NCBI RefSeq assembly: GCF_004210375.1
Contig: NC_134832.1
Location: forward strand, 153,757,592 to 153,821,591
DNA length: 64,000 bases
Reading direction: 5' to 3'
DNA from: Tachypleus tridentatus
Taxonomy: Eukaryota > Arthropoda > Merostomata > Xiphosura > Limulidae
The stretch's first letter is position 1, and each line of letters begins with the position of its first letter. Both the position numbers and the translations under genes were made by a program. Under the pieces are notes generated by a model that was given only the letters and a program-made list of their open reading frames with translations, searched no databases and was not told where the DNA came from. Positions 2,728 to 61,500 of the stretch are shown one piece after another.

Positions 2728-2985
2728 TCAGATAACGTGGCTGCCCAATTCACAATAGATAATGTGATATTCAGTCTGTCTTCAGATAACATGGCTGCCC
2801 AATTCACAACAGATAATGTGATATTCAGTCTGTCTTCAGATAACGTGGCTGCCCAATTCACAACAGATAATGTGATATTCAGTCTGTCTTCAGATAACGT
2901 GGTTGCCCAATTCACAACAAATAATGTGATATTCAGTCTGTCTTCACATAACTTGGCTGCCCAATTCACAACAGATAATTCTTGT
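2728..2985. repeat. 54-bp minisatellite made from CR1 ORF2 coding sequence (about 5 units)
   Basis: Five 54-bp units (18 codons) read on the minus strand as VNWAATLSEDRLNITLS with small changes. The same peptide occurs once, in register, in the adjoining LINE ORF2 sequence, so the array is an in-frame expansion of LINE coding sequence. At its low-coordinate end it is joined to the ORF1 C-terminus, which is not the normal order in the element, so a recombination or assembly junction sits at about 2727. Confidence 0.85.
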
Positions 2986-3343
2986 ATCCTTTCAAAATTT
3001 GCTTTTTGGAATCAAATATCATTACTCCTGATCTCTCTCTGCAAAAAAACATCAAACCTAATACAGCAATGATCACTTGTACCTAAGGATTCTCCAATTT
3101 CAACCATTTTTATATTTGAAGTTAACTAAAATATAAAATAGCATTATTTTTAGTAGGTTCCTTGACCAACAGGTGGAGAAATCCATTTTGAACAGTTTCC
3201 AGAAATCTTTCTCCTTATGGTTTGACTTTTAGCATTTTCAGTATGTCTGACATTAAAATCACCCATAATTATGACTTCATTAACATCTGGGATCTTAGTC
3301 TCACTGTAAAGTTTCTCAATAATTTCTATTTGATGATCTGTAA
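2986..3343 (-). mobile_element. CR1-like LINE ORF2 fragment: distal endonuclease domain
   Basis: The minus strand encodes a decayed endonuclease segment. The catalytic-region motif GDFN lies at 3252-3263 within VIIMGDFNVRHTE. The SDH motif follows (SLGTSDHCCIRFDV, about 3040-3105), and then the linker toward the reverse transcriptase. Frame breaks lie between the pieces. GDFN and SDH are the standard catalytic blocks of LINE endonucleases. The fragment runs into the assembly gap, so the upstream part is unseen. Confidence 0.75.
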
Positions 3344-3843
3344 NNNNNNNNNNNNNNNNNNNNNNNNNNNNNNNNNNNNNNNNNNNNNNNNNNNNNNNNN
3401 NNNNNNNNNNNNNNNNNNNNNNNNNNNNNNNNNNNNNNNNNNNNNNNNNNNNNNNNNNNNNNNNNNNNNNNNNNNNNNNNNNNNNNNNNNNNNNNNNNNN
3501 NNNNNNNNNNNNNNNNNNNNNNNNNNNNNNNNNNNNNNNNNNNNNNNNNNNNNNNNNNNNNNNNNNNNNNNNNNNNNNNNNNNNNNNNNNNNNNNNNNNN
3601 NNNNNNNNNNNNNNNNNNNNNNNNNNNNNNNNNNNNNNNNNNNNNNNNNNNNNNNNNNNNNNNNNNNNNNNNNNNNNNNNNNNNNNNNNNNNNNNNNNNN
3701 NNNNNNNNNNNNNNNNNNNNNNNNNNNNNNNNNNNNNNNNNNNNNNNNNNNNNNNNNNNNNNNNNNNNNNNNNNNNNNNNNNNNNNNNNNNNNNNNNNNN
3801 NNNNNNNNNNNNNNNNNNNNNNNNNNNNNNNNNNNNNNNNNNN
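3344..3843. other. Assembly gap, exactly 500 N
   Basis: Five hundred consecutive N. The round number suggests an arbitrary scaffolding gap, not a measured length. The order and orientation of 1-3343 relative to the rest is therefore inferred by the assembler. An unbroken ORF across the Ns is meaningless. Confidence 0.99.
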
Positions 3844-4552
3844 TTCTTAGTAAATTGTGTGAAGGATAAGCTATGTCAGAGAATAGTTTTATAAAATGGC
3901 TAGAGTAGGAGCAAAGTCCAAGAAATTCTTGTACCTCACATAGGTTCTTAGTAAATTGTGTGAAGGATAAGCTATGTCAGAGAATAGTTTTATAAAATGG
4001 CTAGAGTAGGAGCAAAGTCCAAGAAATTCTTGTACCTCACATAGGTTCTTAGTAAATTGTGTGATGATAAGCTATGTCAGAGAATAGTTTTATAAAATGG
4101 CTAGAGTAGGAGCAAAGTCCAAGAAATTCTTGTACCTCACATAGGTTCTTAGTAAATTGTGTGATGATAAGCTATGTCAGAGAATAGTTTTATAAAATGG
4201 CTAGAGTAGGAGCAAAGTCCAAGAAATTCTTGTACCTCACATAGGTTCTTAGTAAATTGTGTGAAGGATAAGCTATGTCAGAGAATAGTTTTATAAAATG
4301 GCTAGAGTAGGAGCAAAGTCCAAGAAATTCTTGTACCTCACATAGGTTCTTAGTAAATTGTGTGATGATAAGCTATGTCAGAGAATAGTTTTATAAAATG
4401 GCTAGAGTAGGAGCAAAGTCCAAGAAATTCTTGTACCTCACATAGGTTCTTAGTAAATTGTGTGATGATAAGCTATGTCAGAGAATAGTTTTATAAAATG
4501 GCTAGAGTAGGAGCAAAGTCCAAGAAATTCTTGTACCTCACATAGGTTCTTA
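3844..4552. repeat. 101-bp minisatellite derived from gypsy pol (7 units)
   Basis: Seven head-to-tail units of 100-101 bp, differing mainly by GTGAAGGATAA versus GTGATGATAA. On the minus strand each unit, allowing a frameshift, reads like the FLGL...FI..FSDIA...L block found after the reverse transcriptase of Ty3/gypsy pol (VQEFLGLCSYSSHFIK, then LFSDIAYPSHNLL). It lies exactly where that block is expected next to the gypsy fragment at 4553-4929. The array starts at the gap edge and may be longer. Confidence 0.85.
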
Positions 4553-4929
4553 GCTGTTGGCCAATTCTGAATATGTTCATTCTTGAACAGTTCTGTGGAA
4601 ACTCCTTATCTGCTGTCTGTTGCTTCAGGAAATTAACCAGTTGGAGAAACAATTCAATTATTAGGGTTCAGCTTAAGGTACCCTTTCTTCAGTGGACCCA
4701 GAGTTATCTGTAACCCATTATAAACAAAGGTTTTCCACATGTGATTACATTCCAAGATGGTTCAGAGAGGGCACTTGATTTGTCATTTGTAGCAGGTGCA
4801 TAACATAATCCAAATGGTTACATGGCAAATTGCCACAATCCATTTCCTACATTAAAGATTTACTTCATTGTGTGCTTGAACATGCACATATTCATCCTTA
4901 AGATCCAATGTTGGAAACCATGTTGATAC
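4553..4929 (-). mobile_element. Ty3/gypsy pol fragment (reverse transcriptase, downstream part)
   Basis: The minus strand carries, in broken frames, STWFPTLDLKDEY (the first catalytic Asp block of gypsy RT), NGLWQFAM-PFGLCYAPAT-like sequence (motif B region) and a KGTLKLNPNN-like block (the KLNP motif after the active site). The YIDD active-site region is too decayed to read. Together with 8078-8800 it forms one element split by the hAT insertion. Confidence 0.65.
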
Positions 4930-4937
4930 TTATAAAG
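4930..4937. repeat. Target-site duplication, left (hAT insertion)
   Basis: TTATAAAG directly precedes the CAGGGG end of the hAT element and recurs exactly at 8070-8077. Eight bases is the standard hAT duplication length. Confidence 0.75.
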
Positions 4938-5049
4938 CAGGGGTTGGCAACTTGTTTTTCACAGTGACCACAACTGTGACTGATGAAAACAACGTTGGCC
5001 ACACTATTTAAAGAAAAATGTTAGTTTAATCAAAATAATTGCATTTAAA

Positions 5050-7757
5050 CTAACCTTTAATGTGAAAATTGATGGGGGTTTTCATCAACAAGTTTTTTTG
5101 AAATTTGGCTTAATATCTATACTCAATGAGCAAATAAGCTCTGCCTCTAAATTTAAGTCAGTAAGCTGAGATTTGTATCTAGACTTGAGAAAATCTAGCA
5201 TAGAAAAATGTTGACTCACACACCCATGTGGATCCAAACATGGAATATAATTACAAAACTGCTATCTTTAAATTTGGAAGACACTCATTTATCAGAATAG
5301 TGAGCCACGTCTCTCTGACAGAACATTTTTGTTTTTATTTATGTGTTTTACACTTTGCAGGGTAAGTATCTTGTCTTCAAATCCACACTCATCTAATGAC
5401 AAAAAAGATGAAATTTCCTAAGTCAAATGGAAATGGATCATGCAAAAATTCTAATATCAATATCAAATTTTTAACTTCAGAGAAGCTTGATTCACAGTTT
5501 TGATCCAGTTTATGTAGAAATCATCTTTAGCATCAGAGAAATAATAGTCATTATTATTTTCTAGAAAACTATTCAACATTGCAAAATGTGTCAAATCATT
5601 CTTTTATAATTGTTCTACAAGTAGGTTTAACTTTAATTGAAATTCATGAATAAACTGTGATTGCTCGCTTATATTTTACCTCTTTCTTGAAGCTTTGTAT
5701 TCAAATTATTCAAGTGAACCATCATGTCACACAGAAAGTACAAATCACATTGCCATGACAAAGTTTCAATTTCAGGGAAATTTTCAATCTTACCTTTTTC
5801 AACAAGATACTATTTTATTTGAGTAAATAAGGAAGTAAATCGTTCCAAGGCTTTTCCTCTGCTTAGTCATCTTACATTTGCAAAATCAGTAAGATCATCA
5901 AAAGTACAGTCACTGCTTTTCTTTAAAGACTCAACAAACTGTCGATGAATGAGAGAGCTTCCACTTCTAATATAATTCACAATTTTTACAGCAATGTCCA
6001 TCAAATTTTTCAATTCATCAGTGTTAGACATCTGAGCCACATACATTTTCCTGATGCAAAATGCGATGGAAAGATAGCAGTGTGGACTTCACATTATTTT
6101 CAATTAAATGCTGCTTCAAAAGAGAAACAAATCCTAATTTCGCCTGAGTCATGGTGGGAGTGCCATCTCTTGTGACAGAAACCAGTTGTTGTAAAATCCA
6201 GATTGAATTTTTTAACATTTCAAAAAATTTTTCAAAGATGTATTTTTCCACGTTTGATCTCGTAATCCACAAAGGCCAAGCATTTCTTCCCTCAGTTGAA
6301 GATCTGAAGTTAAATATCGAACACAAAATATCAACTGTGCAGTGTCACTAACATCTGTTGATTCATCTAGTGCTGAAGAAAAATACAAACAGTCTTTTAG
6401 TTGTTCAAACAACTGATTTTCTATGTCTTTCGCTAACTCTAGCATTCTGCGGACAATTGTTCTGTGACTTAATTGCAAATTATTTACCTTTTGAAGAATA
6501 TCATATTTTATTTTTAGATCACAATTCTCCAACAGAGTTTCTAAGACCACAATCAATATTTCTTTTACAAGTTCAGCATCAGGAAATGATTTATTTTTCT
6601 GAACTGGAATCCAAGCTACTTTATAACTAGCTAACATAACTAATTCTATTGATGATAAAAATCTTTTTAGGCCTCTCTTTTGTTCATGAAGTTGTGCTTT
6701 CAGATGGCTAGTTTCATTCACATGATTTTTGCTATTAACTGGAAATTTTACATCAAATTCATTGTAAAAATTGTTAAAGTGTTGCTTAAGGTTGTATACT
6801 TTATCATTGAAAGTTGTTAAAGTGTTGCTTAAGGTTGTATACTTTATCATTGAAAGTTGTTAAAGTTTTGCTTAAGGTTGTATACTTTATCATTGAAAGT
6901 TGTTAAAGTGTTGCTTAAGGTTGTATACTTTATTATTGAAAGTTGTTAAAGTGTTGCTTAAGGTTGTATACTTTATTATTGAAAGTTGTTAAAGTGTTGC
7001 TTAAGGTTGTATACTTTATTATTGAAAATTGTTAAAGTGTTGCTTAAGGTTGTATGCTTTAATATTGAAAATTGTTAAAGTGTTGCTTAAGGTTGTATAC
7101 TTTATTATTGAAAGTTGTTATGGTGTTGCTTAAGGTTGTATGCTAATTCACTGTAAAAGTTGTTAAAGTGTTGCTTAAGGTTGTATACTTTATTATGGAA
7201 AGTTGTTAAAGTGTTGCTTAAGGTTGTATACTTTATTATTGAAATTGTTAAAGTGTTGCTTAAGGTTGTATACTTTATTATTGAAAGTTGTTAAAGTGTT
7301 GCTTAAGGTTGAATAATTTATTATTGAAAATTGTTAAAGTGTTGCTTAAGGTTGAATAATTTATTATTGAAAATTGTTAAAGTGTTGCTTAAGGTTGTAT
7401 ACTTTATTATTGAAAATTGTTAAAGTGTTGCTTAAGGTTGTATACTTTATTATTGAAAATTGTTAAAGTGTTGCTTAAGGTTGTATACTTTATTATTGAA
7501 AGTTGTTAAAGTGTTGTTTAAGGTTGTATACTTTATTATTCCTAAAACCTTTGATACACAAAACACACACTGATTTATAATTTACTTCAATCACTACAAA
7601 TTTCAACTCCCAACTTTCATTAAGTTCTCGTGTCACGTTTTTCCAGTTACGCGCCATTTTCTTTTCGTCAGTAATGCCAGAATCAGTTAAATTGTCTTTA
7701 TTTTCTGAGTGTTCACCATCATCTGGATTATTTCATTTTCGAATTGTATACTTATCC
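5050..7757 (-). pseudogene. hAT transposase pseudogene (GTF2IRD2/ZBED-like group)
   Basis: Reading on the minus strand from about 7757, there is a short N-terminus with MARNWKNVT and a BED-finger-like stretch (VCVLC...KVYNLKQHFNN). The longest uninterrupted piece (6212-6850) contains SSALDESTDVSDTAQLI, the first catalytic Asp block of hAT transposases. Next come LVSVTRDGTPTMT and HRILHQENVC (6024-6240), the second catalytic block and the conserved His region. Then LSRGKALERF (about 5840-5870) and C-terminal HFSMLDFLKSRYKSQLTD (about 5150-5220), the dimerisation region. Several frameshifts and stops separate these blocks, so it is not functional. The group assignment is by motif recall only. 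Confidence 0.8.
6773..7541. repeat. 43-bp minisatellite inside the hAT transposase (about 18 units)
   Basis: About 18 units of roughly 43 bp, with core TTGCTTAAGGTTGTATACTT. On the minus strand the unit is the transposase coding piece KVYNLKQHFNNF, and flanking transposase sequence resumes on both sides. The array is therefore an internal expansion of about a dozen codons. Forty-three is not a multiple of three, so the expansion also destroys the frame. Confidence 0.9.
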
Positions 7758-8069
7758 ATGTTATGGGATTTAAAGCAAAATATATTTAAATGCTTGAAAG
7801 TTGCACAATAAAAGTATGTTTGCAAGTGCATGCAAAACTACATATGCTTGATAACAAACATATAAATCAGACTGATGTTACAAAATGAGCAGAGTCTGTG
7901 GCAGTGATGAAGCGTGAGACATTAGTAATGATGTGAGGCAGTGCAGTTTCTAATTACCAAATTTGTGATAATAAATGTTGGAAGAAGTTGATTCCTAAAC
8001 TCAAGCTGGTCACAACTGTGCTACTTACTGGCCACATGTGGCCAGTAGCCATGAAGTATTCCACTCCTA

Positions 8070-8077
8070 TTATAAAG
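8070..8077. repeat. Target-site duplication, right (hAT insertion)
   Basis: Exact second copy of TTATAAAG, immediately outside the right end of the hAT element. Confidence 0.75.
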
Positions 8078-8800
8078 TATCCAAAGTTGAATCAATCTTG
8101 GTTGTGGGTAGGAAGCTTATGTGACTTCATTCATCTTCTGGTAGTCCATACACGATTTTTTGAGTATCCACTCTTCTTCAAAAGTACAATAGGAATAAGT
8201 GATGCCCAAAGAGTATCACTTGCTTCTGTTTCTCCTTCATTTTCAAGGCTTCTTTCTCTTAGAAAGCCCCAGCCTCTTTTGCAGAAGAGAGTTGTTTAGT
8301 TTAGCTCACATGTTGGAGCAGCGTCTCCAGTATCACTTATAGAACATGTGTTCACTTTAGGTCATAAGGTCCACTGGATAAGATGTTGTGATATTCAGTG
8401 AACAAATTATATAGCCTATGGCATTGATCAATTATAAGATCTCCACAGTTTCATTCACACGCTTTTGTAAGTGAGATAGTAAACTGTCCTTACACGAGGA
8501 TTTTATATTAGGCTTTGTTTGCTTCAAAGCTTACTTGTTCTAAAATTCTTTGTTGACATACTTGCTGGTGGTATAATGGCTTTTTACCTTTCTTGTCACT
8601 GGAGGTTTACCTCTGGTGTAGCAGTTGTCATTCAGCTTAGGATTTCCTGGTCATAGACTCTGAAACTGTTTAAACCTAGTCTAACCTCACATCCCAGTGC
8701 ACTATTTCTTCTTTCTATATGGGCTTGCTCAAATTGACCAACTATGTGACCACTTTTGTACTCATTTAAAGTCATAGTAGTTTTGATTTTACTAACTTTA
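8078..8800 (-). mobile_element. Ty3/gypsy pol fragment (region upstream of and entering RT)
   Basis: In broken minus-strand frames there is an IDTGDAAP-like motif (about 8300-8330) and a basic Lys/Arg-rich stretch, then PIVLLKK (about 8185-8205) and DYRKLNEVT-like and TKIDSTLDTL sequence (8080-8160). These are the consecutive blocks at the start of gypsy reverse transcriptase. The portion above about 8430 is less certain (possibly the protease/gag end). A short plus-strand ORF across 7988-8299 is an antisense shadow. Confidence 0.6.
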
Positions 8801-11621: not shown

Positions 11622-14165
11622 ATACTCTCATTTTAAAGGTAATTTATGTAATCACTTTAAATTAGTTCTTATACCAGTAGTTTTGTCTGTACTCTAATTT
11701 TAAAGGTAGTTTATGTAATCACTTTAATTTAGTTCTTATACCATTAGTTTTGTCAGAATTCTAATTTTAAAGGTAGTTTATGTAATAGCTTTAATTCAGT
11801 TCTTATACCAGTAGTTTTGTCAGTACTCTAATTTTAAAGGTAGTTTATTTAATAGCTTTAATTCAGTTCTTATACCAGTAGTTTTGTCAGTACTCTAATT
11901 TTAAAGGTAGTTTATGTAATCACTTTAATTTAGTTCTTATACCATTAGTTTTGTCAGAATTCTAATTTTAAAGGTAGTTTATGTAATCACTTTAATTCAG
12001 TTCTTATACCAGTAGTTTTATCAGTACTCTAATTTTAAAGGTAGTTTATGTAATCACTTTAATTCAGTTCTTATACCAGTAGTTTTATCAGTACTCTAAT
12101 TTTAAAGGTAGTTTATGTAATCATTTTAATTCAGTTCTTATACCAGTAGTTTTGTCAGTACTCTAATTTTAAAGGTAGTTTATGTAATCACTTTAATTTA
12201 GTTCTTATACCAGTAGTTTTGTCAGTACTCTAAATGTAAAGGTAGTTTATGTAATAGCCTTAATTCAGTTCTTATACCATTAGTTTTGTCAGTACTCTAA
12301 TTTTAATGGTAGTTTATGTAATCACTTTAATTTAGTTCTTATACCAGTAGTTTTGTCTGTACTCTAATTTTAAAGGTAGTTTATGTAATAGCTTTAATTC
12401 AGTTCTTATACCAGTAGTTTTGTCAGTACTCTAATTTTAAAGGTAGTTTATGTAATCACTTTAATTTAGTTCTTATACCATTAGTTTTGTCAGAATTCTA
12501 ATTTTAAAGGTAGTTTATGTAATCACTTTAATTCAGTTCTTATACCAGTAGTTTTATCAGTACTCTAATTTTAAAGGTAGTTTATGTAATCACTTTAATT
12601 TAGTTCTTATACCAGTAGTTTTATCAGTACTCTAATTTTAAAGGTAGTTTATGTAATCACTTTAATTCAGTTCTTATACCAGTAGTTTTATCAGTACTCT
12701 AATTTTAAAGGTAGTTTATGTAATCACTTTAATTTAGTTCTTATACCAGTAGTTTTATCAGTACTCTAATTTTAAAGGTAGTTTATGTAATCACTTTAAT
12801 TTAGTTCTTATACCAGTAGTTTTGTCAGTACTCTAATTTTAAAGGTAGTTTATGTAATCACTTTAATTTAGTTCTTATACCAGTAGTTTTTTCAGTACTC
12901 TAATTTTAAAGGTAGTTTATGTAATCACTTTAAATTAGTTCTTATACCAGTAGTTTTGTCTGTACTCTAATTTTAAAGGTAGTTTATGTAATAGCTTTAA
13001 TTCAGTTCTTATACCAGTAGTTTTGTCAGAATTCTAATTTTAAAGGTAGTTTATGTAATAGCTTTAATTCAGTTCTTATACCAGTAGTTTTGTCAGTACT
13101 CTAATTTTAAAGGTAGTTTATTTAATAGCTTTAATTCAGTTCTTATACCAGTAGTTTTGTCAGTACTCTAATTTTAAAGGTAGTTTATGTAATCACTTTA
13201 ATTTAGTTCTTATACCATTAGTTTTGTCAGAATTCTAATTTTAAAGGTAGTTTATGTAATCACTTTAATTCAGTTCTTATACCAGTAGTTTTATCAGTAC
13301 TCTAATTTTAAAGGTAGTTTATGTAATCATTTTAATTCAGTTCTTATACCAGTAGTTTTGTCAGTACTCTAATTTTAAAGGTAGTTTATGTAATCACTTT
13401 AAATTAGTTCTTATACCAGTAGTTTTGTCTGTACTCTAATTTTAAAGGTAGTTTATGTAATCACTTTAATTTAGTTCTTATACCATTAGTTTTGTCAGAA
13501 TTCTAATTTTAAAGGTAGTTTATGTAATAGCTTTAATTCAGTTCTTATACCAGTAGTTTTGTCAGTACTCTAATTTTAAAGGTAGTTTATTTAATAGCTT
13601 TAATTCAGTTCTTATACCAGTAGTTTTGTCAGTACTCTAATTTTAAAGGTAGTTTATGTAATCACTTTAATTTAGTTCTTATACCATTAGTTTTGTCAGA
13701 ATTCTAATTTTAAAGGTAGTTTATGTAATCACTTTAATTCAGTTCTTATACCAGTAGTTTTATCAGTACTCTAATTTTAAAGGTAGTTTATGTAATCATT
13801 TTAATTCAGTTCTTATACCAGTAGTTTTGTCAGTACTCTAATTTTAAAGGTAGTTTATGTAATCACTTTAATTTAGTTCTTATACCAGTAGTTTTGTCAG
13901 TACTCTAAATGTAAAGGTAGTTTATGTAATAGCCTTAATTCAGTTCTTATACCATTAGTTTTGTCAGTACTCTAATTTTAATGGTAGTTTATGTAATCAC
14001 TTTAATTTAGTTCTTATACCAGTAGTTTTGTCAGTACTCTAAATGTAAAGGTAGTTTATGTAATAGCCTTAATTCAGTTCTTATACCATTAGTTTTGTCA
14101 GTACTCTAATTTTAATGGTAGTTTGTGTAATCACCTTAATTCAGTTTACATACCAGTAATTTTAG
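11622..14165. repeat. 67-bp minisatellite (about 38 units) with higher-order structure
   Basis: Head-to-tail 67-bp units containing TTAAAGGTAGTTTATGTAAT and TTCTTATACCAGTAGTTTTG. Diagnostic variants recur at whole-unit spacings. A TTTATTTAATAG variant lies near 11843, 13118 and 13586 (about 19 and 7 units apart). An AAATGTAAAGG variant lies near 12232, 13907 and 14041. This shows that multi-unit blocks were duplicated. The array ends about 120 bp before the splice acceptor of the E93-like exon, so it probably lies in that gene's intron. Confidence 0.95.
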
Positions 14166-14288
14166 CAAGAATAAATGAGTTAAGAGTAATTTTTTAGAAC
14201 TCAAGTGTGTTTGTTGTTGGTGTATTTTTTTCCTAGTGATATGAGGTTAAGGGTTATGAGTAATGTATGTATCCACATTATTTTTCAG

Positions 14289-15475
14289 ATGTTAACAGGA
14301 ATAGAAAGTTTAGCTCTTAAAAGGCCGCCTTCCGAAGACAGCGTACCAAATCAGTCCTTGATAGATGTCAGTGAACTGCCAATGTTGCCAGAACTCATTC
14401 ATCATCTTGCAGAAGAAAGAATGCTTCTCGAGTGTGATCGCAGCAATCGACTAGGTAAAGAAGAAACGGACACATCTGAGAAGGATGTGTCTGATTGCTT
14501 GTCAAATGTGATACTAAAAGTTCCGTCCTTTCGACCTGGCACTCAGTTAACTGACAGTAACAGTGATGCAGCTAATGCTCTGTCACTTAGTCAAACAGGT
14601 CACTACCCAGGAAATAAGGGTATATCTGTGTCTTTGAAGGAACTGATTGCCAAAAGTATTAGCCAGAGAGTTGGAAAACTGGTTTCTGCCCAAAGAAAAA
14701 AATAATTATACACATAGCCAATCAACAGTAAATGAAGGGAAAACGTGCAGCAATGTGGTAAACAGATTGTCATCAAATCCTGCCTCTCATTCTTCCTGTC
14801 CAAGGTCTCACCAGACCAATGAATCTTCTAAAAGGGAAAGGAAACAAATTCGTCCAAAACGTGGACGTTACAGAAATTATGACAGAAACAGCCTTGCAAT
14901 GGTCAGTGAGAGCAGTACAGCGAGGTGAGATGAGTGTTCACCGTGCTGGCAACTACTATGGTGTACCACATTCTACTCTTGAATATAAAGTAAAGGAGCG
15001 GCACTTGCTTCGAAACAAGAAGAATTTGAAATACCACCAGAAGTCTTCTGAGAGCTCAACATCTGATAAGAGTAATGAAAGCAATCATAGCTTAAAGAAA
15101 CTTCTACAAGGAACAAACATAAGTGAAGGTGAGACAACCCCGTATTTGGACAAGCCAGAGGGCTCAACTTCTGTTCCAACTTCTTTGCCGTCCCACACGT
15201 CACTTTGGAAAACTATGCCTTTTTTATCTGAGGGTTTGGCAGGACTGAGTTCAGATTCAAGCAACTTTTTTGCCTCTCAGATGATTCGTAAACTGCAGGC
15301 TAATGCTCAGCGGCAGGAAGGTTGTAGTGGAAATCAACGTCAAGAAGTGGGCATTTTGGAGAACCTTATTAAAAAGACTCTTGAAAAGTCTGTTTCTATG
15401 GAGGATAAAACATCCTCATCCTTAGTTATCTCCTGTAGCAATGGAGAAAGTGATGTTAATTTAAATCACAAATAA
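14289..15475 (+). pseudogene. E93/Eip93F-like transcription factor, terminal coding exon, two frameshifts
   Basis: The exon follows a good acceptor (TATTTTTCAG, ending 14288) and ends at TAA 15473-15475. Frame 1 (14289-14705) includes SLKELIAKSISQRV. After an A-run at about 14692-14698 the reading shifts by one base. It shifts again near 14899 (CAATGGTCAGTG), inside the DNA-binding domain. The domain reads KRGRYRNYDRNSLA, then VRAVQRGEMSVHRAG, NYYGVPHSTLEYKVKERHLL. This is the pipsqueak-type helix-turn-helix of E93/Mblk-1 and the related LCOR corepressors, nuclear factors that bind DNA in ecdysone-controlled metamorphosis. About 180 further codons are open. Each shift is explained by one extra base, so this is either a young pseudogene (perhaps a decaying paralogue) or a good gene with two sequencing errors. 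The intron-type acceptor argues against a processed copy. Upstream exons were not found. Confidence 0.8.
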
Positions 15476-18510: not shown

Positions 18511-19093
18511 CACCAGAACAAATGTTAAATGGCCAGTATATGAAAACCCAGGTTTTGATAAAATTAGTGGTGCGATCTTTCATGGATACTAAATGTGGTT
18601 TGTGGTAAGTAGTAGTTGCATCCTGTGTACTCTCTATGCAAACTAAAAAAAACCAAAAACCCAAACATATAACCATAGGCCAGCTACAGTCACAAAACTA
18701 CTCTTTCACAAAAATCTCTGAAATCAGCAGACATAATCTAATACACAAAGTTTGTGCCTGATTTGTTTACGCCTTTCAACCTCTATAGTAGTTGGGCCTA
18801 TGAAAACATGAAATCAACGCATTCAGGTTTAACGTGGTCACAGTTTTGTGTCAATGAACTTGTTGTAGTATAATTTTTTTTTGCACAGAAAATGATCAGA
18901 TTTGTTGTCTGATTTAAGAAGAAATGACGTCATGAAAATGTATGTGTGTTTCATATAATCAGTTGCAATATTACGTTAGGTGTGGGAAATTTCCTGCTGT
19001 ATTTTGTATCAGGTTGAAATGTATATTAAATCAACCTCCTGAAGAGAGAGACTAATTTTAACCATTTTTAAATGGAAAAGGTCAAAAGAAGTT
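18511..19093. other. Noncoding DNA between SINE and 61-bp array
   Basis: No gene or repeat recognised. The short minus-strand ORF at 18491-18676 overlaps the SINE tail and has no motif. Confidence 0.4.
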
Positions 19094-19521
19094 GTTGTGT
19101 TCTTGATGTTTCTTGTGAACGGTGCAGTGCATAACGGATGCTATCATTGTCTCTGTTGTGTTCTTGATGTTTCTTGTGAACGGTGCAGTGCATAACGGAT
19201 GCTATCATTGTCTCTGTTGTGTTCTTGATGTTTCTTGTGAACGGTGCAGTGCATAACGGATGCTATCATTGTCTCTGTTGTGTTCTTGATGTTTCTTGTG
19301 AACGGTGCAGTGCATAACGGATGCTATCATTGTCTCTGTTGTGTTCTTGATGTTTCTTGTGAACGGTGCAGTGCATAACGGATGCTATCATTGTCTCTGT
19401 TGTGTTCTTGATGTTTCTTGTGAACGGTGCAGTGCATAACGGATGCTATCATTGTCTCTGTTGTGTTCTTGATGTCTCTTGTGAACGGTGCAGTGCATAA
19501 CGGATGCTATCATTGTCTCTG
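19094..19521. repeat. 61-bp minisatellite (7 units)
   Basis: Seven almost identical 61-bp units carrying TTCTTGATGTTTCTTGTGAA and GCAGTGCATAACGGATGC. The near absence of variation (one T/C change, in the last unit) suggests a recent expansion or a homogenised array. Confidence 0.97.
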
Positions 19522-26247: not shown

Positions 26248-26440
26248 TTAAATATCTGCCACGTTTTTTAAGGGACCAGTAAATGTGTTTTTACGATAGA
26301 CGGAAGTTGTAAAACAGTTAAAATAATGATTAATCAGGAAGTCCATAAAATACATAAAGTTATTTGTCTCAGTTTCATAAGTGAAGTGTATAGATGGATG
26401 TTGTGAAGTAAGACAGTCAAGAAACTGTTGGATGTGATAG
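26248..26440 (-). pseudogene. PLE reverse transcriptase, C-terminal segment
   Basis: The minus strand encodes HIQQFLDCLTSQHPSIHFTY, then ETETNN, and SVYRKNTFTG, the blocks that follow the active site in Penelope-like reverse transcriptases (a FL..LN..HP.I.FT.E.E segment, then YRK.TFTG). The segment is in frame with the minisatellite next to it. Confidence 0.75.
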
Positions 26441-28164
26441 AAAGTACCACAAGACACCTTATGTAGATAATAAATCTGACACGTAAAGAAAGTACCACAA
26501 TACACCTTCTGTAGATAATAAATCTGACACTTAAAGAAAGTACCACAAGACACCTTCTGTAGATAATAAATCTGACACTTAAAGAAAGTACCACAAGACA
26601 CCTTCTGTAGATAATAAATCTGACACTTAAAGAAAGTACCACAAGACACCTTCTGCAGATAATAAATCTGACACTTAAAGAAAGTACAACAAGACACTTT
26701 CTGTAGATAATAAATCTGACACTTAAAGAAAGTACCACAATACACCTTCTGTAGATAATAAATCTGACACTTAAAGAAAGTGCCACAATACACCTTCTGT
26801 AGATAATAAATCTGACACTTAAAGAAAGTGCCACAATACACCTTCTGTAGATAATAAATCTGACACTTAAAGAAAGTACCACAATACACCTTCTGTAGAT
26901 AATAAATCTGACACTTAAAGAAAGTACCACAAGACACCTTCTGTAGATAATAAATCTGACACTTAAAGAAAGTACCACAATACACCTTCTGTAGATAATA
27001 AATCTGACACTTAAAGAAAGTACCACAAGACACCTTCTGTAGATAATAAATCTGACACTTAAAGAAAGTACCACAAGACACCTTCTGTAGATAAAATTTG
27101 ACACTTAAAGAAAGTACCACAAGACACCTTCTGTAGATAATAAATCTGACACTTAAAGAAAGTACCACAAGACACCTTCTGTAGATAATAAATCTGACAC
27201 TTAAAGAAAGTACAACAAGACACCTTCTGTAGATAATAAATCTGACACTTAAAGAAAGTACCACAAGACACCTTCTGTAGATAATAAATCTGACACTTAA
27301 AGAAAGTACCACAATACACCTTCTGTAGATAATAAATCTGACACTTAAAGAAAGTACCACAATACACCTTCTGTAGATAATAAATCTGACACTTAAAGAA
27401 AGTACCACAAGACACCTTCTGTAGATAATAAATCTGACACTTAAAGAAAGTAACACAAGACACCTTCTGTAGATAATAAATCTGACACTTAAAGAAAGTA
27501 CCACAATACACCTTCTGTAGATAATAAATCTGACACTTAAAGAAAGTACCACAAGACACCTTCTGTAGATAAAATCTGACACTTAAAGAAAGTACCACAA
27601 GACACCTTCTGTAGATAATAAATCTGACACTTAAAGAAAGTACCACAAGACACCTTCTGTAGATAATAAATCTGACACTTAAAGAAAGTACAACAAGACA
27701 CCTTCTGTAGATAATAAATCTGACACTTAAAGAAAGTACCACAAGACACCTTCTGTAGATAATAAATCTGACACTTAAAGAAAGTACCACAATACACTTT
27801 CTGTAGATAATAAATCTGACACTTAAAGAAAGTACCACAAGACACCTTCTGTAGATAATAAATCTGACACTTAAAGAAAGCACAACAAGACACCTTCTGT
27901 AGATAATAAATCTGACACGTAAAGAAAGTACCACAAGACACCTTCTGTAGATTATAAATCTGACACTTAAAGAAAGTACCACAATACACCTTCTGTAGAT
28001 AATAAATCTGACACTTAAAGAAAGCACCACAATACACCTTCTGTAGATAATAAATCTGACACTTAAAGAAAGTACCACAAGACACCTTCTGTAGATAATA
28101 AATCTAACACTTAAAGATAGTACCACAATACACCTTCTGTAGATAATAAATTTGACACTTAAAG
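26441..28164. repeat. 48-bp minisatellite replacing the PLE catalytic motif (about 36 units)
   Basis: About 36 units of 48 bp with core AGACACCTTCTGTAGATAAT. On the minus strand the unit contains TACAGAAGGTGTCTTGTGGT, which aligns with the codons for YRRYVDDTF, the catalytic block of PLE reverse transcriptase, with small changes that abolish the Asp pair. Normal RT sequence continues at both ends of the array (26248-26440 and 28165-28447). Because 48 is a multiple of three, ORFs of up to 444 residues run through it. They are not proteins of interest. Confidence 0.9.
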
Positions 28165-28640
28165 GACAGTTGTCAATCCAGTTCTTTTATCGGTGACAGA
28201 GAAAACTGTTGGCAAGCGTTGGGCCAGGGTAGAAGCACAAAGCAACAATATCTATCTGCTCATATAGAGTATAGTTAAAGATGAGAAGATAGTCTTCAGT
28301 AGAGAGTTCAAGCATATATTTGAAATCAGATTGCCAAAGTCCATTAACAATAATGTTTTTAGTAAAGAGTTTAGACAGTTCAATATCAATGGCTTCGTTC
28401 AGAGGAGTGTTAGTAAAAACAGAAGTAAGATCGAAGTTAGCCATCACGTGATTTAAGAGGGCTAACTAGTTTAAGACGAGTAGAAGGAATTTAGCTAAGT
28501 CGCAACTGCGAGTACCCAAAGTAGAAACCATATGTCGGAGTAGGATGTCTGGTTTGTGAAATTTCGAAAGGCCATGTAATATTTTACGTTGGAAGCCTGT
28601 AGAATATAAATTGTTGTAAATACAATTAGAGATAATATTT
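28165..28640 (-). pseudogene. PLE reverse transcriptase, palm segment
   Basis: 28187-28447 on the minus strand encodes ANFDLTSVFTNTPLNEAIDI (first catalytic Asp, D in FD-TS-FTN-PL) and later a GPTLANSFLCHR block (motif B region, normally SPLGPTLAN.FLC). Just upstream, 28440-28570, a KFHKPDILLR...VST-like RT block is readable with breaks. The order of blocks is that of a Penelope-like RT. The upstream limit is uncertain. Confidence 0.75.
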
Positions 28641-29021
28641 GTTTTACTTGTTTATGCTATTAGAAAGTTTCTTTAACTTGACATTTTGTGTGTCTTTGTG
28701 TCTAGCAGTTTTCTTCTCATTATTTTTATTAATGAGATCCAAAAGAAGGTTGAAGTCCAACAATAATTTGGAGTTGAAGAGTGCAGTTAGAGATGAATTC
28801 AGTTTAGACAAGATATTATGTCTATGTAGATGTTTCTACCTAAGATTTCATCAAGTAAGCTCTTTTAACAACTACGGTATACTATTGAGTTTGAAGGTTT
28901 CTCTTAGTAAGTGTGAACTGAGGAAACTTATTTCACAGTTGATGATTGAGTTTTGAATTACTTCAAAAACTAGGTGTCAAGATTAACTTTTTTATTTTAG
29001 ATCAATTTTTCAATAGCTCTG
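28641..29021. other. Probable 5' part of the PLE, not resolvable
   Basis: Lies between RT palm and the inverted SINE. The plus-strand ORF 28639-28956 shows no known motif, and the minus strand is Lys/Asn-rich but not assignable. Confidence 0.3.
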
Positions 29022-32142: not shown

Positions 32143-32392
32143 TGATGTTGAGAAAACCCACTTGTAGAGAAATATATATGCAAAAATGGCTTGTTTTGGT
32201 TGAGAAAATATTTTACGTAGAAGAGTGAACAACGTTTCGACCTTCTTCAGTCATCGTCAGGTTCACAAAGAAAGAAAGAGGTAACTGACCGGAAACTGAC
32301 CACATGTTTGGAAGGGGTTGTGCAACTGAGTGTTGGATTGTAGAGGGTGGTGTTAGATGTTTGAATATATAATTTTATATTATTTATTATAT

Positions 32393-33283: not shown

Positions 33284-33921
33284 ACATGTAATCTACATAT
33301 CTGTACCAGTATAGTGGTGGATGTAATGCTGTGTTTATTGCTTAGGCCATTTGTTTGTATATAGTTGTGGTTGTTGAACATGAAGTTTGTCTTTATCGTG
33401 GTGAATTCTATGAGGGTTGCTAATTGGTTGCTGGGAATGTCTATAGTTGGGTTAGGGTCTCGGATATAGAGTTCTAAGGCTATCTTGCAGGCTTCAGTGG
33501 TTGGAACTTCTGTAAAGAGGGATATAACATCAAAACTGGCCATGAAGGCTTTATGATTAAGTTGATTTAGATTAGACTTGAAATTAAAAGAGTCTTTGAA
33601 TGAGCTGTCTGATGTTACATATTTGGAGAATGCCCATGCTATGTATTTACCAAGATTGTAATTAAACCATTCATATGTGGACATTATTGGTCGTAATAGA
33701 CAATCTGGTTTATGAGGTTTGGGAATACTGTATATTTGTGGTGTGCATGAGTCGGTTTTACGTAGGTAGGAATAAAGTGTTTGTGAAATTGTGTTGGCTT
33801 TTTTCATATTTAGTAGTAATTTGTTTAGTTGCATCTCGTGTGTCTTTGTTGGATTTGTGTGTATTGGTTTAAAGTTGTTCGTGTCTGATAGGATGTTATT
33901 CATTTTTTTGGATGTATTCAT
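33190..33921 (-). pseudogene. PLE reverse transcriptase, internally deleted
   Basis: The open part (33250-33921) shows PQIYSIPKPHKPDCLLRPIM (RT finger block) and AFMASFDVISLFTEVPTTEA (palm, first catalytic Asp), then FNNHNYIQTNGL. Directly after NGL the motif B segment (normally about 50 residues with SP.L...) is absent and the frame shifts. The active-site block follows in another frame as YWYRYVDYMYAG, so the second Asp of YVDD is Tyr. Then comes a HINSIHPNINFTCEQEE block (about 33190-33250). The deletion and the D-to-Y change mean no polymerase activity. Confidence 0.8.
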
Positions 33922-34004
33922 TCATGTTCATTATGACTATAGTGTTACCTTTATCTGCTTTTAGAATTTTTATGTTTTTGTCTTGTTTTAGGTTTTTAAT
34001 GGAA

Positions 34005-34380
34005 TTAATGTCTCTTTTTGTAAGATTGTTTTCTAGCTTTCTGTTTTGTGAAATTATGTTGATGGTTTTGTGAGAAAATTCTTTGAAAAAAGTCGTTTAA
34101 GATGTTGTTTTTAGGTGTTTCTGGAAAATATAAATTTTTAATTTTACCTGGGAAGTTTGGCTGTTGGATGTCAATAAAATTATCTAAGTTGTCTTCCTTC
34201 TGTTGGTTGTTTTTGGTTGTTTCCTTGTTTTTGTTTTCTGTAGAAAGTATCACAAGTCTCCTGGCTAGATCTTCTAAACATGTTTTGATTTCATTGGTTG
34301 GAATGTACCTAGGTGCTATTGCGAAGGTGAGTCCTTTGTTAAGTAGATGTATCTTATCTGTGTTTAATTGTCGGTCGGAT
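34005..34380 (-). pseudogene. PLE N-terminal region
   Basis: The minus strand encodes LLNKGLTFAIAPRYIPTNEI, then KTCLEDLARRL, the usual start region of PLE ORFs (LL.KGL.F...P..IP). A Lys/Asn-rich stretch follows. The open frame begins in the neighbouring minisatellite, an accident of insertion. A further short block between 33921 and 34005 carries KADKGNTIVIMN-like sequence in another frame. Confidence 0.7.
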
Positions 34381-36125
34381 CTACAGAACATGGGATACAT
34401 AAACAGAACCAGTTCTAACAATAAGAATCACATACAGAATGTGGGACAAATAAACAGAACCAGTTCTAACAATAAGAATCACATACAGAATATGGGACAA
34501 ATAAACAGAATTAGTTCTAACAATAAGAATCACATACAGAACATGGGATACATAAACAGAACCAGTTCTAACAATAAGAATCACATACAGAACGTGGGAT
34601 ACATAAACAGAACCAGTTCTAACAATAAGAATCACATACAGAATATGGGACAAATAAACATAATTAGTTCTAACAATAAGAATCAAATACAGAATATGGG
34701 ACAAATAAACATAATTAGTTTTAACAATAAGAATCACATAAAAAAGTGGGATACATAAACAGAACCAGTTCTAACAATAAGAATCACATACAGAAGGTGG
34801 GATACGTAAACAGAACCAGTTCTAACAATAAGAATCACATACAGAACATGGGATACATAAACAGAACCAGTTCTAACAATAAGCATCACATACAGAATGT
34901 GAGATACATAAACAGAACCAGTTCTAACAATAAGAATCACATGCAGAACGTGGGATACATAAACAGAACTCGTTATAACAATAAGAATCACATACAGAAC
35001 ATGGGATAAATAAACAGAACCAGTTCTAACAATTAGAGCCATATATAGAACATGGGATACATAAACAGAACCAGTTCTAACAATAAGAATCACATACAGA
35101 ATATGGGACAAATAAACAGAATTAGTTCTAACAATAAGAATCACATACAGAACATGGGATACATAAACAGAACCAGTTCTAACAATAAGAATCACATACA
35201 GAACATGGGATACATAAACAGAACCAGTTCTAACAATAAGAATCACATACAGAACGTGGGATACGTAAACAGAACCAGTTCTAACAATAAGAATCACATA
35301 CAGAATATGGGACAAATAAACATAATTAGTTCTAACAATAAGAATCAAATACAGAATATGGGACAAATAAACATAATTAGTTTTAACAATAAGAATCACA
35401 TAAAAAAGTGGGATACATAAACAGAACCAGTTCTAACAATAAGAATCACATACAGAAGGTGGGATATGTAAACAGAACCAGTTCTAACAATAAGAATCAC
35501 ATACAGAACATGGGATACATAAACAGAACCAGTTCTAACAATAAGCATCACATACAGAATGTGAGATACATAAACAGAACCAGTTCTAACAATAAGCATC
35601 ACATACAGAATGTGAGATACATAAACAGAACCAGTTCTAACAATAAGCATCACATACAGAATGTGAGATACATAAACAGAACCAGTTCTAACAATAAGCA
35701 TCACATACAGAATGTGAGATACATAAACAGAACCAGTTCTAACAATAAGAATCACATACAGAATGTGAGATAAATAAACAGAACCAGTTCTAACAATAAG
35801 AATCACATACAGAACATGGGATAAATAAACAGAACCAGTTCTAACAATAAGAATCACATACAGAATGTGGGATACATAAACAGAACCAGTTCTAACAATT
35901 AGAGCCATATATAGAACATGGGATACATAAACAGAACCAGTTCTAACAATAAGAATCACATACAGAACGTGAGATAAATAAACAGAACCAGTTCTAACAA
36001 TAAGAATCACATACATAATGTGGGATACATAAACAGAACCAGTTCTAACAATAAGAACCACATACAGAACATGGGATACATAAACAGAACCAGTTCTAAC
36101 AATTAGAGCCATATATAGAACATGA
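34381..36125. repeat. 51-bp minisatellite, right part (about 34 units)
   Basis: Units of 51 bp with ATACATAAACAGAACCAGTT and CTAACAATAAGAATCACATA. Blocks recur: 34738-34960 and 35400-35580 share the same order of variants, including a rare AAAAAAGTGGGATAC unit (about 662 bp, 13 units apart). This shows higher-order duplication. Long ORFs on both strands are periodic 17-residue artefacts. Confidence 0.95.
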
Positions 36126-40393: not shown

Positions 40394-40408
40394 AAAACAG
40401 AGCTAACT

Positions 40409-55500: not shown

Positions 55501-58500
55501 ATTATGTAAATGATACATGAAAAAGCTAACTTGTAAAGACATGTCTTCATGCAAAATATGGGTATTTAATTTTTAAGTTTTTTGTGATTTTATTTTTAAT
55601 TAACTTAGTGTATGTGTGTGTGTATATAAATTTAAGCTGTGTTATATTTATGCTGAAATAAAGTTAATAAAATTACTGTTAATTTTTCAAATAAAGAAAT
55701 ATTGGTCATATTGTATGAATAAAATTATCACATACAGTATTGTGCAGAAGTGTTAGGACAAGAGAATAGTATCTTTTTTCTATTTCATAATCTAATTCTT
55801 CCATAGAATGTAAATTTCAATGTTATGGCAATGCTTCACTGATCCTTATTGACAATTGAATGAGCCAGTTTAGAATCCCCATATTCTTGTAGTGAGGGCA
55901 TGTCATAAGGGTTCATCTGCTTGAATGAACATACTGATAAAATATAAGGTGTGAAATAACTATCCTGGTACCACGTGCAGTGTGTGAAAGAAGCTAGTGT
56001 GTATATCATGTGAAACAGTGAAAGAATATAGAATGTTTAAAGTACTCCTGTTTATTGACCTCACTGAGGTTAACTTACAAGTTTGTAAGGCAGAATGTTA
56101 AGTTTGAAAAAATTAAGTATCACATGACTTAACAAGTGTAGCAGTAGTTGGCTGATTATTTATTCTAATGACAAAGGTACTAAAGAAGTTTCAAAGTGCA
56201 GGAAACTGAGATTTTGTTGGTTTTAATGCTATGTTGAAAAGCCCTTAATTATTCAATATTACAAATCACAACATATTTTTCAACAGTCAGTGTATTTTGC
56301 CAGCTATACCTAACACTAGAAATGAAGTGATTAAATACTTCCTTACAATTAACAGAAGGCTTGTATTATTATTTGTATGATCAACACCGTATATTTGGTG
56401 AAAACATGATTGTTCAAGCAAAATAAGAGTTGTCCATTTCACTTCCCTTCTATTTTGAATCAGAAAATAAAATGTATAATATTAAAATACTCATGCTAGC
56501 ATATTGTTTATGTATACATTTGTTTTGTACATTTAAAATTTTGTTCTTGTTTCACAGGGCTTACAAATTTAGTAATGATATTCTGGTGTTCAAAATATTA
56601 TGCCATTTAATTTAGGAGAATTTTGTCTCTCACAATCAAACTATGGTTTGAGAAAACTTGTATTTTGGTAATATAAGGTTTAGCCATAGCTTTTTACATG
56701 TTTCTTGAAAGTATTACTGGTTACAATGTGATTTCTCCAGTTTTTAGTATTAGAGTAAGATAATTTATTATGTATTTTTTCAGTTAAATACAAAAAAGCT
56801 TGAGAGGTGTTCAGATAGATGTCATTCAAGTGTATAAATTCATACTTCTAGGCAAAACGAGAACAGAAGGAAGAACGTTTGAAACAAGATCTCTTGTCTG
56901 GAGAGATTACAGTGATCAGAGAACAGGTATTTATTTAATATTATCAGAATAATTGTAGAGATAGCAGGTGATTCTCTGGATATCAGAATAATGAAACAAA
57001 ACTTATATAGAGGCACATAATTTGGTATTTTGATTTCCTGATATAAAATCGTCTAACACTGGAGAAGTGAAGCACACATTTAAAAGCTGTTAGTTTATTC
57101 ATATAGTATACTGATGAGAATTATATGCAATAGATTTCTTTAATGTTGAAATAGGCTACCCTTCATGAAACATTTGACTTGTATGTCACATATGGTTACC
57201 TTTTCACTATTTTTATGAGATCTTAAAATTTACAAGTCACATTTTTCATGAAGAAGAGTATCTTATTTCAACATTAAGGAAATCTATTGCACATAATTCT
57301 TGTTTAGTTCAGGAAATCTATTGCACATAATTCTTGTTTAGTTCAGGAAATCTATTGCACATAATTCTTGTTTAGTTCAGGAAATCTATTGCACATAATT
57401 CTTGTTTAGTTCAGGAAATCTATTGCACATAATTCTTGTTTAGTTCAACTCGTCATCCAGATAGAACATTTGACGTCAAGAATATTAATTCATAAAAATG
57501 TTGTTGTAAATTTTGTTCTGTAAAGTTTAGCCCATACCTGTTTGTTTTCAGCAGAGATGAGTTATGAGCATGAAAGTGAGCATTTTGTATGTGTATAGAA
57601 ATATGTCTTATTGTATATCATTTACTAGCACTCTTCCTTTATGTCTGTAACAGTACTACCAACTTTCACTCAAAGCCATCTCGGCCTCACTTCGCTCTCT
57701 TTACTATCGACTTTCAGTATCTTATTCATATGGGGAATTTCTTCACCTCACTCGAACCCAGCCTTCTTCGTTTTGGTTCCAGGATATGGAACAGGCAGTC
57801 TCTCTTTTTGGGATTGTAGACTTCTCTGAAGTTCTACTCCCCTTAAGTTAGCTGCACCTGCATTCCTTTTATTGGATGTTTCTTGTCTAGTAGAACTTTT
57901 CCCAACATACTTTGGACTGTTTTTCTACCTGGGATCAAGGCTGCCGTGCTTGGTGGCTCAACAGGGAGTCGACTGTGATGGGATTTCCACTCCTCTGCCT
58001 TGTACCAAGTCTTGTTTATTTACATATACTTCCTTGGGGGCTTTCCTCAATATCTCAGAGATTTTGATGTGGTGATCAGTTGAAGTAGCTATTCTCCATT
58101 TCTGTATCCTGGAACCTCTGTAGTATATCCTTTAGTTCCTGTTGAGGTGGGTTAAAATCCATATCTCTTTTCAGAATCTGGATATGTACTTGACCACCAA
58201 CCACAACATGACACATTCCAGGAGTTATGAATCTTGTGGCTGATTGCTTATCAAGTCCCAACCAGGTTCTCCCCATGAGAGTGGTCTCTTCATCCTCGGT
58301 TTTTCCTATGGCTGTATTCGTAACTGGGATATATGTATATGTATGAACTTCTAACTCACTGAAATATCAAACTTCCTTCCTGCAGTTCCTCACCTCTGGG
58401 GGTGAATGTTTTCAGTCCAGATTGGAGAGGTTAAGTGTTCCCAGTTTGTTAGGTGAAATAGGTGCAATGAATAGATTTTATTGGGAACTCTCTACTTCTA

Positions 58501-61500
58501 TGCACTTTGAAGGAAGCTAGTAGTGAGGATGTTCAAGTTGTATGTAGAGTTTGTAGGATGGATGAAAAGTTGGAGGCTATCCTAACTAAAGTTGAGAAAA
58601 TAGACAAAGAGAAGTATAAACTGTGAGAAATGATGGCTGGACTTCAGGAGGAGCTTAAGTTGAAGTATAAACAGTGAGAAATGATGGGGCTGGACTTCAG
58701 GAGGAGCTTAAGTTGAAGTATAAACAGTGAGAAATGATGGCTGGACTTCAGGAGGAGCTTAAGTTGAAGTATAAACAGTGAGAAATGATGGGGCTGGACT
58801 TCAGGAGGAGCTTAAGTTGAAGTATAAACAGTGAGAAATGATGGCTGGACTTCAGGAGGAGCTTTAGTTTTTACATGTAAGGAAGTCATCAGCTAAGATT
58901 AACAATGAGATTCACAAAGGGTAGTATTAAAGTATTTGTAAAGACCCTATTCTATTGAGCAACAAGTTTTAGCCCTTGGTTTATGTAGACGAGGAAGTAT
59001 TGGAGGGTGTGAAAACAGAATGAATAATAAAGGATATGCAATATGAACTTAAGGAGGTTATAGTTACAGGTGATTCTAATATGTCATATAGATAAAATAG
59101 TCTGTAGGGTAAATAGGGAGAGAAGAGTTAGATTATGATACTCTGGGGCACAAGTGGAAGACAACTGAAAGAACAAGAGAGATAATGAAGGGGACTGGAA
59201 ATGATGCAGATTTTCTTGTGCATCTAGGGGCTGACAGTATATGGAACAGTAACTCAGAGGAGCTAATTAATAAGTACAAGGGGTTGATAAAATCATTTAG
59301 AGATAAAGGCTGTAATGTCAGGGCTACTGTCAAGAATTAATTGTGGAGATGATATTTTGAGTAGGGCTAAATGCTGGACTAAAATTAATATGTAAGGTTA
59401 GCTGGTTGGACTTGTAGGATCGGTTCATTGGTAGGAGGAAATGGATGGTTTACACATAAGTAGTAAAGAGTCTGACATGTTTGCAAGAGCTATTAACTCA
59501 GCTCTAAGGAAAGTTTTAAATTAAGACTAGATAGTGGTGAGAGCAAAGATAAACTAAATTAAAAGGTAGAGGAAAGTTTAACATAGGAAATAAGTATAAA
59601 AATCATAAGGATCGGCTTAACTGTTACTATAGTAATGCTGGAAGTGTAAGAAATAAAATAGATAACTTTATGGCACTTGTAGGAAACAAAGATTTAGATA
59701 TAATGGGAATAACTGAAACATGGTTAAATGGAGATGATTTTGATGACAGAAGTTCCTTTGAAACACATGGTTACAGATTATTTAATAGGAACAGAGAAGT
59801 AAAGAGAGGGAAAGAAGTGACTCTGTATGTAAAGTATTCACTATTTTAACTAGTCTTCTATTAACAATCGCAGTTTATCTTATGTGGAGAAATGATTATG
59901 GATAGTAATAAAATACATTTATTTAGGGGTGTTCAACTGTTTAAAATAACAGTGTTTTCTAGTTTCTCACAGTTGTATGTATAATAACTTTTAATAGTTG
60001 AGATTTGTATTTGCAAATGGATCATGACAGCAAAACCTGCAGGTTTAATTGCTGTTTTAATGTTTCTTTTAAAATAAACAAATAAAACATACTAACACAG
60101 TACTAATGCAGGAAGGAATTTAAAAATGGCTGCTGGGTCAAAAGGGTTAATACTGTGTCACAATATTTTATTACGTTTACTCCTGTTGATGTTTGGATAG
60201 GAGGAACCTTGAAAGTTACTGTGACAAATAAAATCATTTAAAACAGGGAATATAAAGCTTATTGTATGTACCAAAAGTTGTACTCTACTGTAGTTTAACA
60301 AACAGTAGCACACTACTACATTTCACAATATTATCACATAATAACATTCTTTGTTTTTTTACCAATGTTATGCCATTGTTGTATTTAATGTTTTTGTGTC
60401 TAATAGAATAATGACGTGGATAGTGATCTGGATGATGATGAAGAAAAATATGCTGATAATGCTGACATGCCTGGAACCAAAGTCGACAGCAAACAGAGAA
60501 TTACTGTTCGAAACTTGCGAATTCGTGAAGATATTGCTAAGGTATGACTTGTGAAACTGTAGAACTGTTTCCAAGGATGTTTTTTTGAATTTTTCTATTT
60601 TCACTCTTTGGGAGAAAATTACAGTAAATGTAAAAGAAACTTTGTTACAGAAATAACATGTTTTTAGTGAAATAAAATATATCAAGTGTCTAAGTTGTTT
60701 GGATGGAAAGATATATGTGTTTGTGTATTAAACTATTCCTAGATTCTCTGTAAAATTCTTTATACAAGTTGAAACTAAAATACATTAATTTTAAGAAACT
60801 AAATTCTGATCTTGAGTGTAATGATAGAAAGTTTTTATGATTATACATTTAGTGTTAATTGAAAATAAAATTGATAAACTGAAGTTTTTTATGTGGTTAA
60901 AATATTTCAAAATACTTTATTAGTTACAGATTTTTAGTTTAGTAGAGTTGAAATGTAATAGTATTTTAACTAAGTTGCTGAAATTAGAAGTTTTACATTT
61001 TACTGTAGGTTATGATGTGGGCTTTTTTTCCTTATGTTTTCTGACATTTAGTGAAATATTTAAAACAAAATTGGAATTGATGTAGCCACGAAGCATCAAA
61101 AAGTTTAAATATTTCATTCTTTACTAAATTAAATATTATTTGAAATGATAACATTGGTCTGGTAGTTTCCTAGATGTTAAAACAATTTAGCATTTGTAAA
61201 ACGAAGTTCTACAAAATAATGTAGGTTAATATACGATCAAGGAAAAGTCAACTACAGCTTTTGTTTGTTATCATTAAATTATGACAGTGAATGTCTAATA
61301 ATGAGTTTAAGACTGTCTGATTAAGTTGGAATAGTAGAAATACCAAACTGTGTGTCAGTTTTAGAAGGATTTGCAATGGGTATCCTTTTGTTTTTATCAA
61401 TATTTCAACAATAATTAAGGCTTATAAAACATATGGACATATTTGTCTGTTTGTTTCTTGTCTATTATTTTAGAAGCTTATTGTATGTGTTGTCTAATGT

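Follow-up and report, generated by a model that had tools for sequence, protein, structure and literature searches.

How do minisatellites come to be made of pieces of transposon coding sequence, as several are in one stretch of horseshoe crab DNA, and does such sequence give rise to arrays more readily than other DNA? The stretch analysed here (the window) spans 64,000 nucleotides of Tachypleus tridentatus, C8:153757592-153821591; C8 measures 161.3 Mb and the genome searched 2.17 Gb in 205 contigs. How minisatellites are born is difficult to trace, since one seldom knows the single-copy state from which they came. In relatives of a dispersed element that state is kept, and thereby the seams, the founder lesions and the order of events become readable.

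Using TRF (period of at least 20 bp, at least 2.5 copies and at least 100 bp), we found 14 separate arrays in the window after merging, which together account for 23.7% of its bases. They are built of head-to-tail units of 34-100 bp in about 5-87 copies, the unit sizes of minisatellites or VNTRs. The genome as a whole seems to be very rich in tandem repeats. A set of 30 random pieces (L019-L048, 160 kb) holds 17 arrays in total, and those outside distal C8 (L019-L026 and L034-L048, 132 kb) hold 12 arrays covering about 19% of their bases, much of this cover coming from pieces that lie wholly within long arrays. By count, arrays are denser in the window (14 per 64 kb versus 12 per 132 kb; P 0.03). 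Three of the twenty 4-kb pieces (L023, L028 and L038) lie entirely within long arrays of 38-49-bp units.

An earlier note on this DNA had singled out five arrays whose units are pieces of an adjoining transposon open reading frame. TRF recovered all five where the note had placed them, and the element sequence claimed to lie beside each array is indeed present, with the gypsy array being checkable on one side only. The arrays and their flanks are as follows:

2342 to 2722, minus strand: end of CR1 ORF1 and start of the endonuclease, belonging to a separate CR1 piece, which repeats 59454 onwards in inverted orientation
2723 to 2979, minus strand: 54-bp array of 4.8 copies (TRF), the unit being CR1 ORF2 past the endonuclease part; CR1 copy L018 is colinear with the array-bearing L009
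2980 to 3343, minus strand: CR1 endonuclease part adjoining the 54-bp array
3344 to 3843, no strand: assembly gap of 500 N
3844 to 4553, minus strand: 100-bp array of 7.1 copies (TRF; dispersed matches), its left end lost to the gap, the unit being a gypsy-type reverse transcriptase (RT) region, so named from its motif
4554 to 4747, minus strand: gypsy-type flank matched by dispersed copies
5204 to 6766, minus strand: presumed hAT element, on the 3' side of its array
6767 to 7540, minus strand: 43-bp array of 18 copies (18.0 by TRF), the unit being single in 35 of 40 scored hAT copies
7541 to 8080, minus strand: hAT element, 5' side of the array
26252 to 26438, minus strand: PLE RT, 3' side of the array
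26439 to 28164, minus strand: 48-bp array of 36 copies (36.0 by TRF), the unit covering the RT catalytic motif and already frameshifted
28165 to 28923, minus strand: PLE RT, 5' side of the array
58420 to 58610, plus strand: CR1 ORF1, 5' side of the array
58611 to 58869, plus strand: 5-copy array (5.0 by TRF) whose units measure 51 and 53 bp, the unit being CR1 ORF1
58870 to 59837, plus strand: CR1 ORF1 and the start of ORF2, 3' side of the array

The elements presumably belong to the CR1, gypsy, hAT and PLE families, names that we assign mainly from sequence motifs. Profile searches with Pfam returned Exo_endo_phos for the window CR1 ORF at 23.2 bits, below the cut-off of 24.5, and RVT_1 for the PLE relative L051 at 17 bits, below the cut-off of 29.6. 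The hAT pieces returned unrelated families alone, all below cut-off, and no Pfam match was obtained for the gypsy piece, the window PLE pieces or the PLE relative on C3 (L052). Against the PDB, a PLE relative had AbiK as its sole match (8.7e-05) and the gypsy piece had none. A coding role for the arrays themselves was considered and rejected, since the reading frame is not maintained across units of 100, 43 or alternating 51/53 bases, and the PLE unit of 48 bp carries a frameshift.

For four of the five arrays (hAT, PLE, CR1 ORF1 and CR1 ORF2), relatives on other chromosomes have a single unit with the element continuing on both sides. Such single-copy colinear relatives indicate that the arrays were born in place within single element copies. 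The comparison of sequences supports the view that they arose inside single, decayed copies, the families at large, as far as their copies were listed or scored, being without them. In the case of hAT, a copy on C4 (L017) has one unit, and both array flanks align with it. Forty hAT copies out of 856 candidates were scored: in 35 the match stops at query 499-513, inside the first unit or where it ends, and the five with more units are all on C8, at 153.05, 153.76, 156.74, 159.17 and 159.21 Mb. One of these, at C8:156737908-156739023, has apparently about three units at the array site, going by match coordinates, and may possibly represent an early stage of the array.

The PLE copies on C10 (L051) and C3 (L052) likewise read through with one unit, and among the dispersed PLE matches listed none goes more than 5 bases into a second unit. 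Relative to these two copies, the RT catalytic motif has a one-base deletion in all 32 motif-string matches in the array of 36 units, and the same search did not find the intact form of L051 and L052 in the array. A deletion in 32 of 32 matched units implies that the lesion was either present in the founder or spread among the units later.

As to CR1 ORF1, copies on C12 (L018) and C10 (L016) hold a single unit and are colinear. The CR1 ORF2 array had been described as lying in ordinary element sequence, and its unit is indeed CR1 ORF2, but the window array lies where two CR1 pieces meet (2723-2725). Bases 1-2725 repeat 59454-62187 in inverted orientation (98.9% identity), and the switch at 2725 from this inverted copy to the CR1 ORF2 array means that the left contig joins two CR1 pieces; the joint is either a real rearrangement or an assembly error. 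An array of this kind with CR1 on both sides is found at C8:152.96 Mb (L009), to which the window array and its other flank match at 98.7%, and the C12 copy (L018), with its single unit, aligns to L009 on either side of the array. All 33 dispersed CR1 ORF2 rows among the matches listed start in the last unit or later. The large inverted duplication extends outward past both window ends, with mirrored 37-, 82- and 58-bp arrays (L014, L015). The 37-bp array, a sixth embedded array, in this case in CR1 and beyond the window, has 13-14 copies with CR1 on both sides (L014 4582-5073; mirrored in L015 2406-2930).

The gypsy array begins at the first base past the 500-N gap, in which its left side is lost. 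On the right, all 15 dispersed gypsy rows among the matches listed extend across the array edge at position 4553, with 67-80% identity. An open frame at 4453-4605 (minus strand) passes from the gypsy flank into the unit.

We then come to whether transposon coding sequence is favoured. We consider it likely that these are ordinary minisatellites born in place, and that dead transposons supply units by local abundance and not by proneness: CR1, gypsy, hAT and PLE would do so because they make up a large share of the local sequence. The strongest of the competing explanations, which we nevertheless regard as unlikely, holds that arrays form preferentially in transposon coding sequence, with the chromatin of dead elements or repeat-directed repair raising the rate of array birth. 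The four families cover 18.0% of the window outside its arrays (48,308 bases), according to tblastx matches to individual copies of each, a figure that leaves other transposon families uncounted and is partly self-match (gypsy 447 bp, one PLE copy). Set against this share, the five embedded arrays of 14, together with the sixth, 37-bp CR1 array, exceed the local cover of 18-19% and are far above the cover of these families in random pieces. The comparison of array fraction with transposon share, which the earlier note had proposed genome-wide and which we ran locally, nonetheless yields no significant excess (5/14 versus 18%, P 0.09), with the gypsy array counted on one flank and CR1 ORF2 on two non-colinear CR1 flanks. 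The value is P 0.07 if the inverted duplicate counts once, and P 0.11 for 6 of the 18 distinct arrays in the region versus about 19% cover, the 18 being those of the window plus the distinct arrays of L014 (3) and L010 (2), minus one at the end of L015.

Elsewhere the four families cover 3.0% (4,406 of 148,102 bases, L010, L014 and L015 included); in the 30 random pieces alone they cover about 0.5%, and none of the 17 arrays there lies beside them. Against the random pieces, the window would look strongly enriched for arrays in these families. Since the window itself defined the families, this enrichment mostly reflects its richness in them, and picking families for being seen beside arrays biases the comparison toward an excess. 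As a rough estimate, a moderate, even twofold, preference is compatible with 13-18 arrays at P 0.07-0.11, and nothing requires one. Also speaking against a preferred substrate are window arrays whose units have no dispersed relatives (67 and 34 bp) and random-piece arrays, of which three of 17 were searched, at one edge each, with 0/3 showing a dispersed unit. Hence, special proneness of transposon coding sequence is not supported. From the four element classes a general process had been suggested; what stands of this is in-place birth in dead copies, and what does not is the special proneness of transposon coding sequence (P 0.09).

Several arrays of the window have a different setting:

11623 to 14163, no strand: 67-bp array of 37.9 copies that adjoins a Psq-domain exon, with no dispersed relatives of its unit among the matches listed
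19093 to 19521, no strand: 61-bp array of 7 copies, with 7 of 8 weak dispersed rows crossing its edge
57277 to 57447, no strand: 34-bp array of 5 copies, for which no dispersed relatives were found

The window also has a 39-bp array, 50/51-bp arrays at 31.5 kb and at 34.4 kb, and a pair of 51-bp arrays at its two ends. The search for dispersed relatives covered the five embedded arrays and those of 67, 61, 45 and 34 bp; it passes over very common words, so that DNA for which no dispersed match was obtained need not be unique. With 7 of 8 weak dispersed rows running over its edge, the 61-bp array is possibly the sixth in the window to derive from a transposon, and may be a further case of this kind. 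For the 45-bp array the flank is dispersed and the unit is without dispersed relatives. Directly beside the 67-bp array, at 14190-15475, is a stretch coding for a Psq helix-turn-helix (Pfam PF05225, 3.3e-13), which may be an exon of an E93/LCOR-like gene. An imperfect palindrome at 57117-57300, 73% identical to its own reverse complement, bears the start of the 34-bp array at its end.

The arrays also differ in length between copies of the same DNA. At a distance of 0.71 Mb, at C8:153.05-153.12 Mb (L013), the window recurs as a colinear copy; identity is 99-100% in the match rows and 98.7% across a 2.2-kb stretch that takes in part of the PLE array. Comparing window and copy, the numbers of units, which may be low where read from match tables for the 0.71-Mb copy, are 36 versus about 70 for the 48-bp array, 7 versus about 32 (61 bp), 37.9 versus at least 17 (67 bp), 18 versus 17 (43 bp), 11 versus at least 9 (45 bp), 5 versus 3 (34 bp), 5 versus 5 (53 bp) and 31.6 versus 31.6 (51 bp). 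Thus, several arrays vary in the manner of VNTRs between near-identical copies, while the 53- and 51-bp arrays do not, and the big differences occur in transposon-derived (48 bp) and other (61 bp) arrays alike. The 0.71-Mb copy is either an unmerged haplotype or a segmental duplication. Some blocks are present three times at 98% identity or more, such as the right arm (window, L013 and, inverted, the L014 contig) and the block of the CR1 array (L010-L012), so two alleles alone are insufficient. A similar near-identical pair is seen at C8:149.06 and 150.00 Mb.

These duplications bear on the possibility that the arrays are artefacts, with repeats collapsed or wrongly expanded in a badly scaffolded region. 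The 500-N gap at the gypsy array, the joint of two CR1 pieces at 2725 and the near-identical blocks at 153.05-153.12, 153.75-153.83 and 154.27-154.51 Mb would fit such an account. We hold it to be quite improbable: identical units recur at separate places with differing array lengths, and the mean unit divergence within arrays is 0.5-10.5%, making copying errors of the assembler hardly their source. That the arrays belong to element families and spread by transposition, as with the Ogre elements of plants, was rejected as very improbable, for despite the several hAT arrays on C8 listed above, the dispersed CR1 and PLE matches listed and 35 of the 40 scored hAT copies show a single unit, and array-bearing copies were seen in distal C8 alone.

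If the arrays are ordinary minisatellites born in place, their history might be pictured as follows. About 34-100 bp of whatever DNA is locally present would undergo tandem duplication, with no measurable surplus of seed repeats at its flanks; end joining or fill-in where the DNA had broken may have produced the first duplicate. The duplicate would then grow and shrink, with growth probably by slippage or unequal exchange, and the finished arrays would be multiplied in distal C8 by local duplication of larger blocks, or in part be unmerged haplotypes. The absence of an excess of seed repeats comes from a test of the seams, whose premise is that slippage between short direct repeats leaves outside sequence resembling the far end of the unit. 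Across the 14 arrays (gypsy on one side, the flanks being decayed) the best match averages 5.21 of 10 bases versus 5.07 at random places; the hAT array scores highest with 7, a value that 8% of random places attain. On visual inspection, the edge of the PLE array shows a near-repeat about 49 bp apart (7/9 in L051, 8/9 with the window flank), which would fit birth from a seed repeat and is a counter-example to the no-seed reading.

The order of units within arrays speaks in part for this history. Adjacent units resemble each other more than they do after shuffling in five of ten arrays (8, 20, 0, 8 and 2 of 500 shuffles), and the pattern is unclear in the other five (153, 53, 321, 165 and 132 of 500). 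When lags of 1-5 units are considered, the 39-bp array alone stands out clearly (0/500), followed by values of 22, 25 and 33, with the remainder at 119 or more.

A more far-reaching interpretation is that an unusually active process, strongest in distal C8, makes arrays from any DNA without seed repeats, the near-identical copies differing more than fourfold in length. We entertain this tentatively and think it rather doubtful; were it true, dead transposons with many single-copy relatives would be a readable natural record of array birth.

Minisatellites inside transposons are already known in human, mouse and plants, as far as the sources drawn upon here describe them. At least 7,276 human tandem repeats, amounting to 23% of minisatellites/satellites, are reported to be transposon-derived (PMC3389668). 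As presented in that source, the human cases are like those described here in that the unit is a piece of a transposon and growth is by local duplication (PMC3389668); unlike in the human set, the units here are drawn from coding regions of CR1, hAT, PLE and gypsy, and the genome has many arrays. Mouse, human and soybean cases of transposon minisatellites have been reviewed (PMC6947457). The mouse and human minisatellites in LTRs and SINEs (Armour 1989, Kelly 1994 and Bois, cited via PMC6947457) are again born within a dispersed element, and the parts concerned, as given in the review, are LTRs and SINEs, whereas here they are open reading frames. In Lathyrus, satellites are described as having expanded from repeats that Ogre elements carry in their 3' untranslated region (PMC7004042). 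Here, too, tandem repeats begin inside a retrotransposon and then expand, but the Ogre arrays, on the account in that source, sit in the 3' untranslated region and accompany the element family, while those of the window were acquired by single dead copies.

In the model of Haber and Louis, direct repeats of 5-10 bp flank the founding unit (PMC6947457). A short local duplication followed by expansion is common to that model and to the history outlined above; as summarised in the review, the model needs the flanking 5-10 bp repeats, whereas across the 14 arrays, with their decayed flanks, no excess of these over chance was found. The titles and abstract openings of the literature consulted held no direct match on horseshoe crab cases or on births from coding sequence. 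The arrays point to birth in decayed copies, on average with no sign of seed repeats, and their value is that of a useful data set, not of a new mechanism.

One element of the window has a different relationship to its array:

34382 to 36124, no strand: 51-bp array, with related units at 31998-32112, across the PLE

This presumed PLE, at about 32200-34381, has long open frames and is flanked on both sides by related 51-bp units. Transposons inserting into arrays were rejected as a general account, the arrangement being seen only for this element. In its case the order of the sequences looks as if the PLE, at about 32.2-34.4 kb, had inserted into a 51-bp array.
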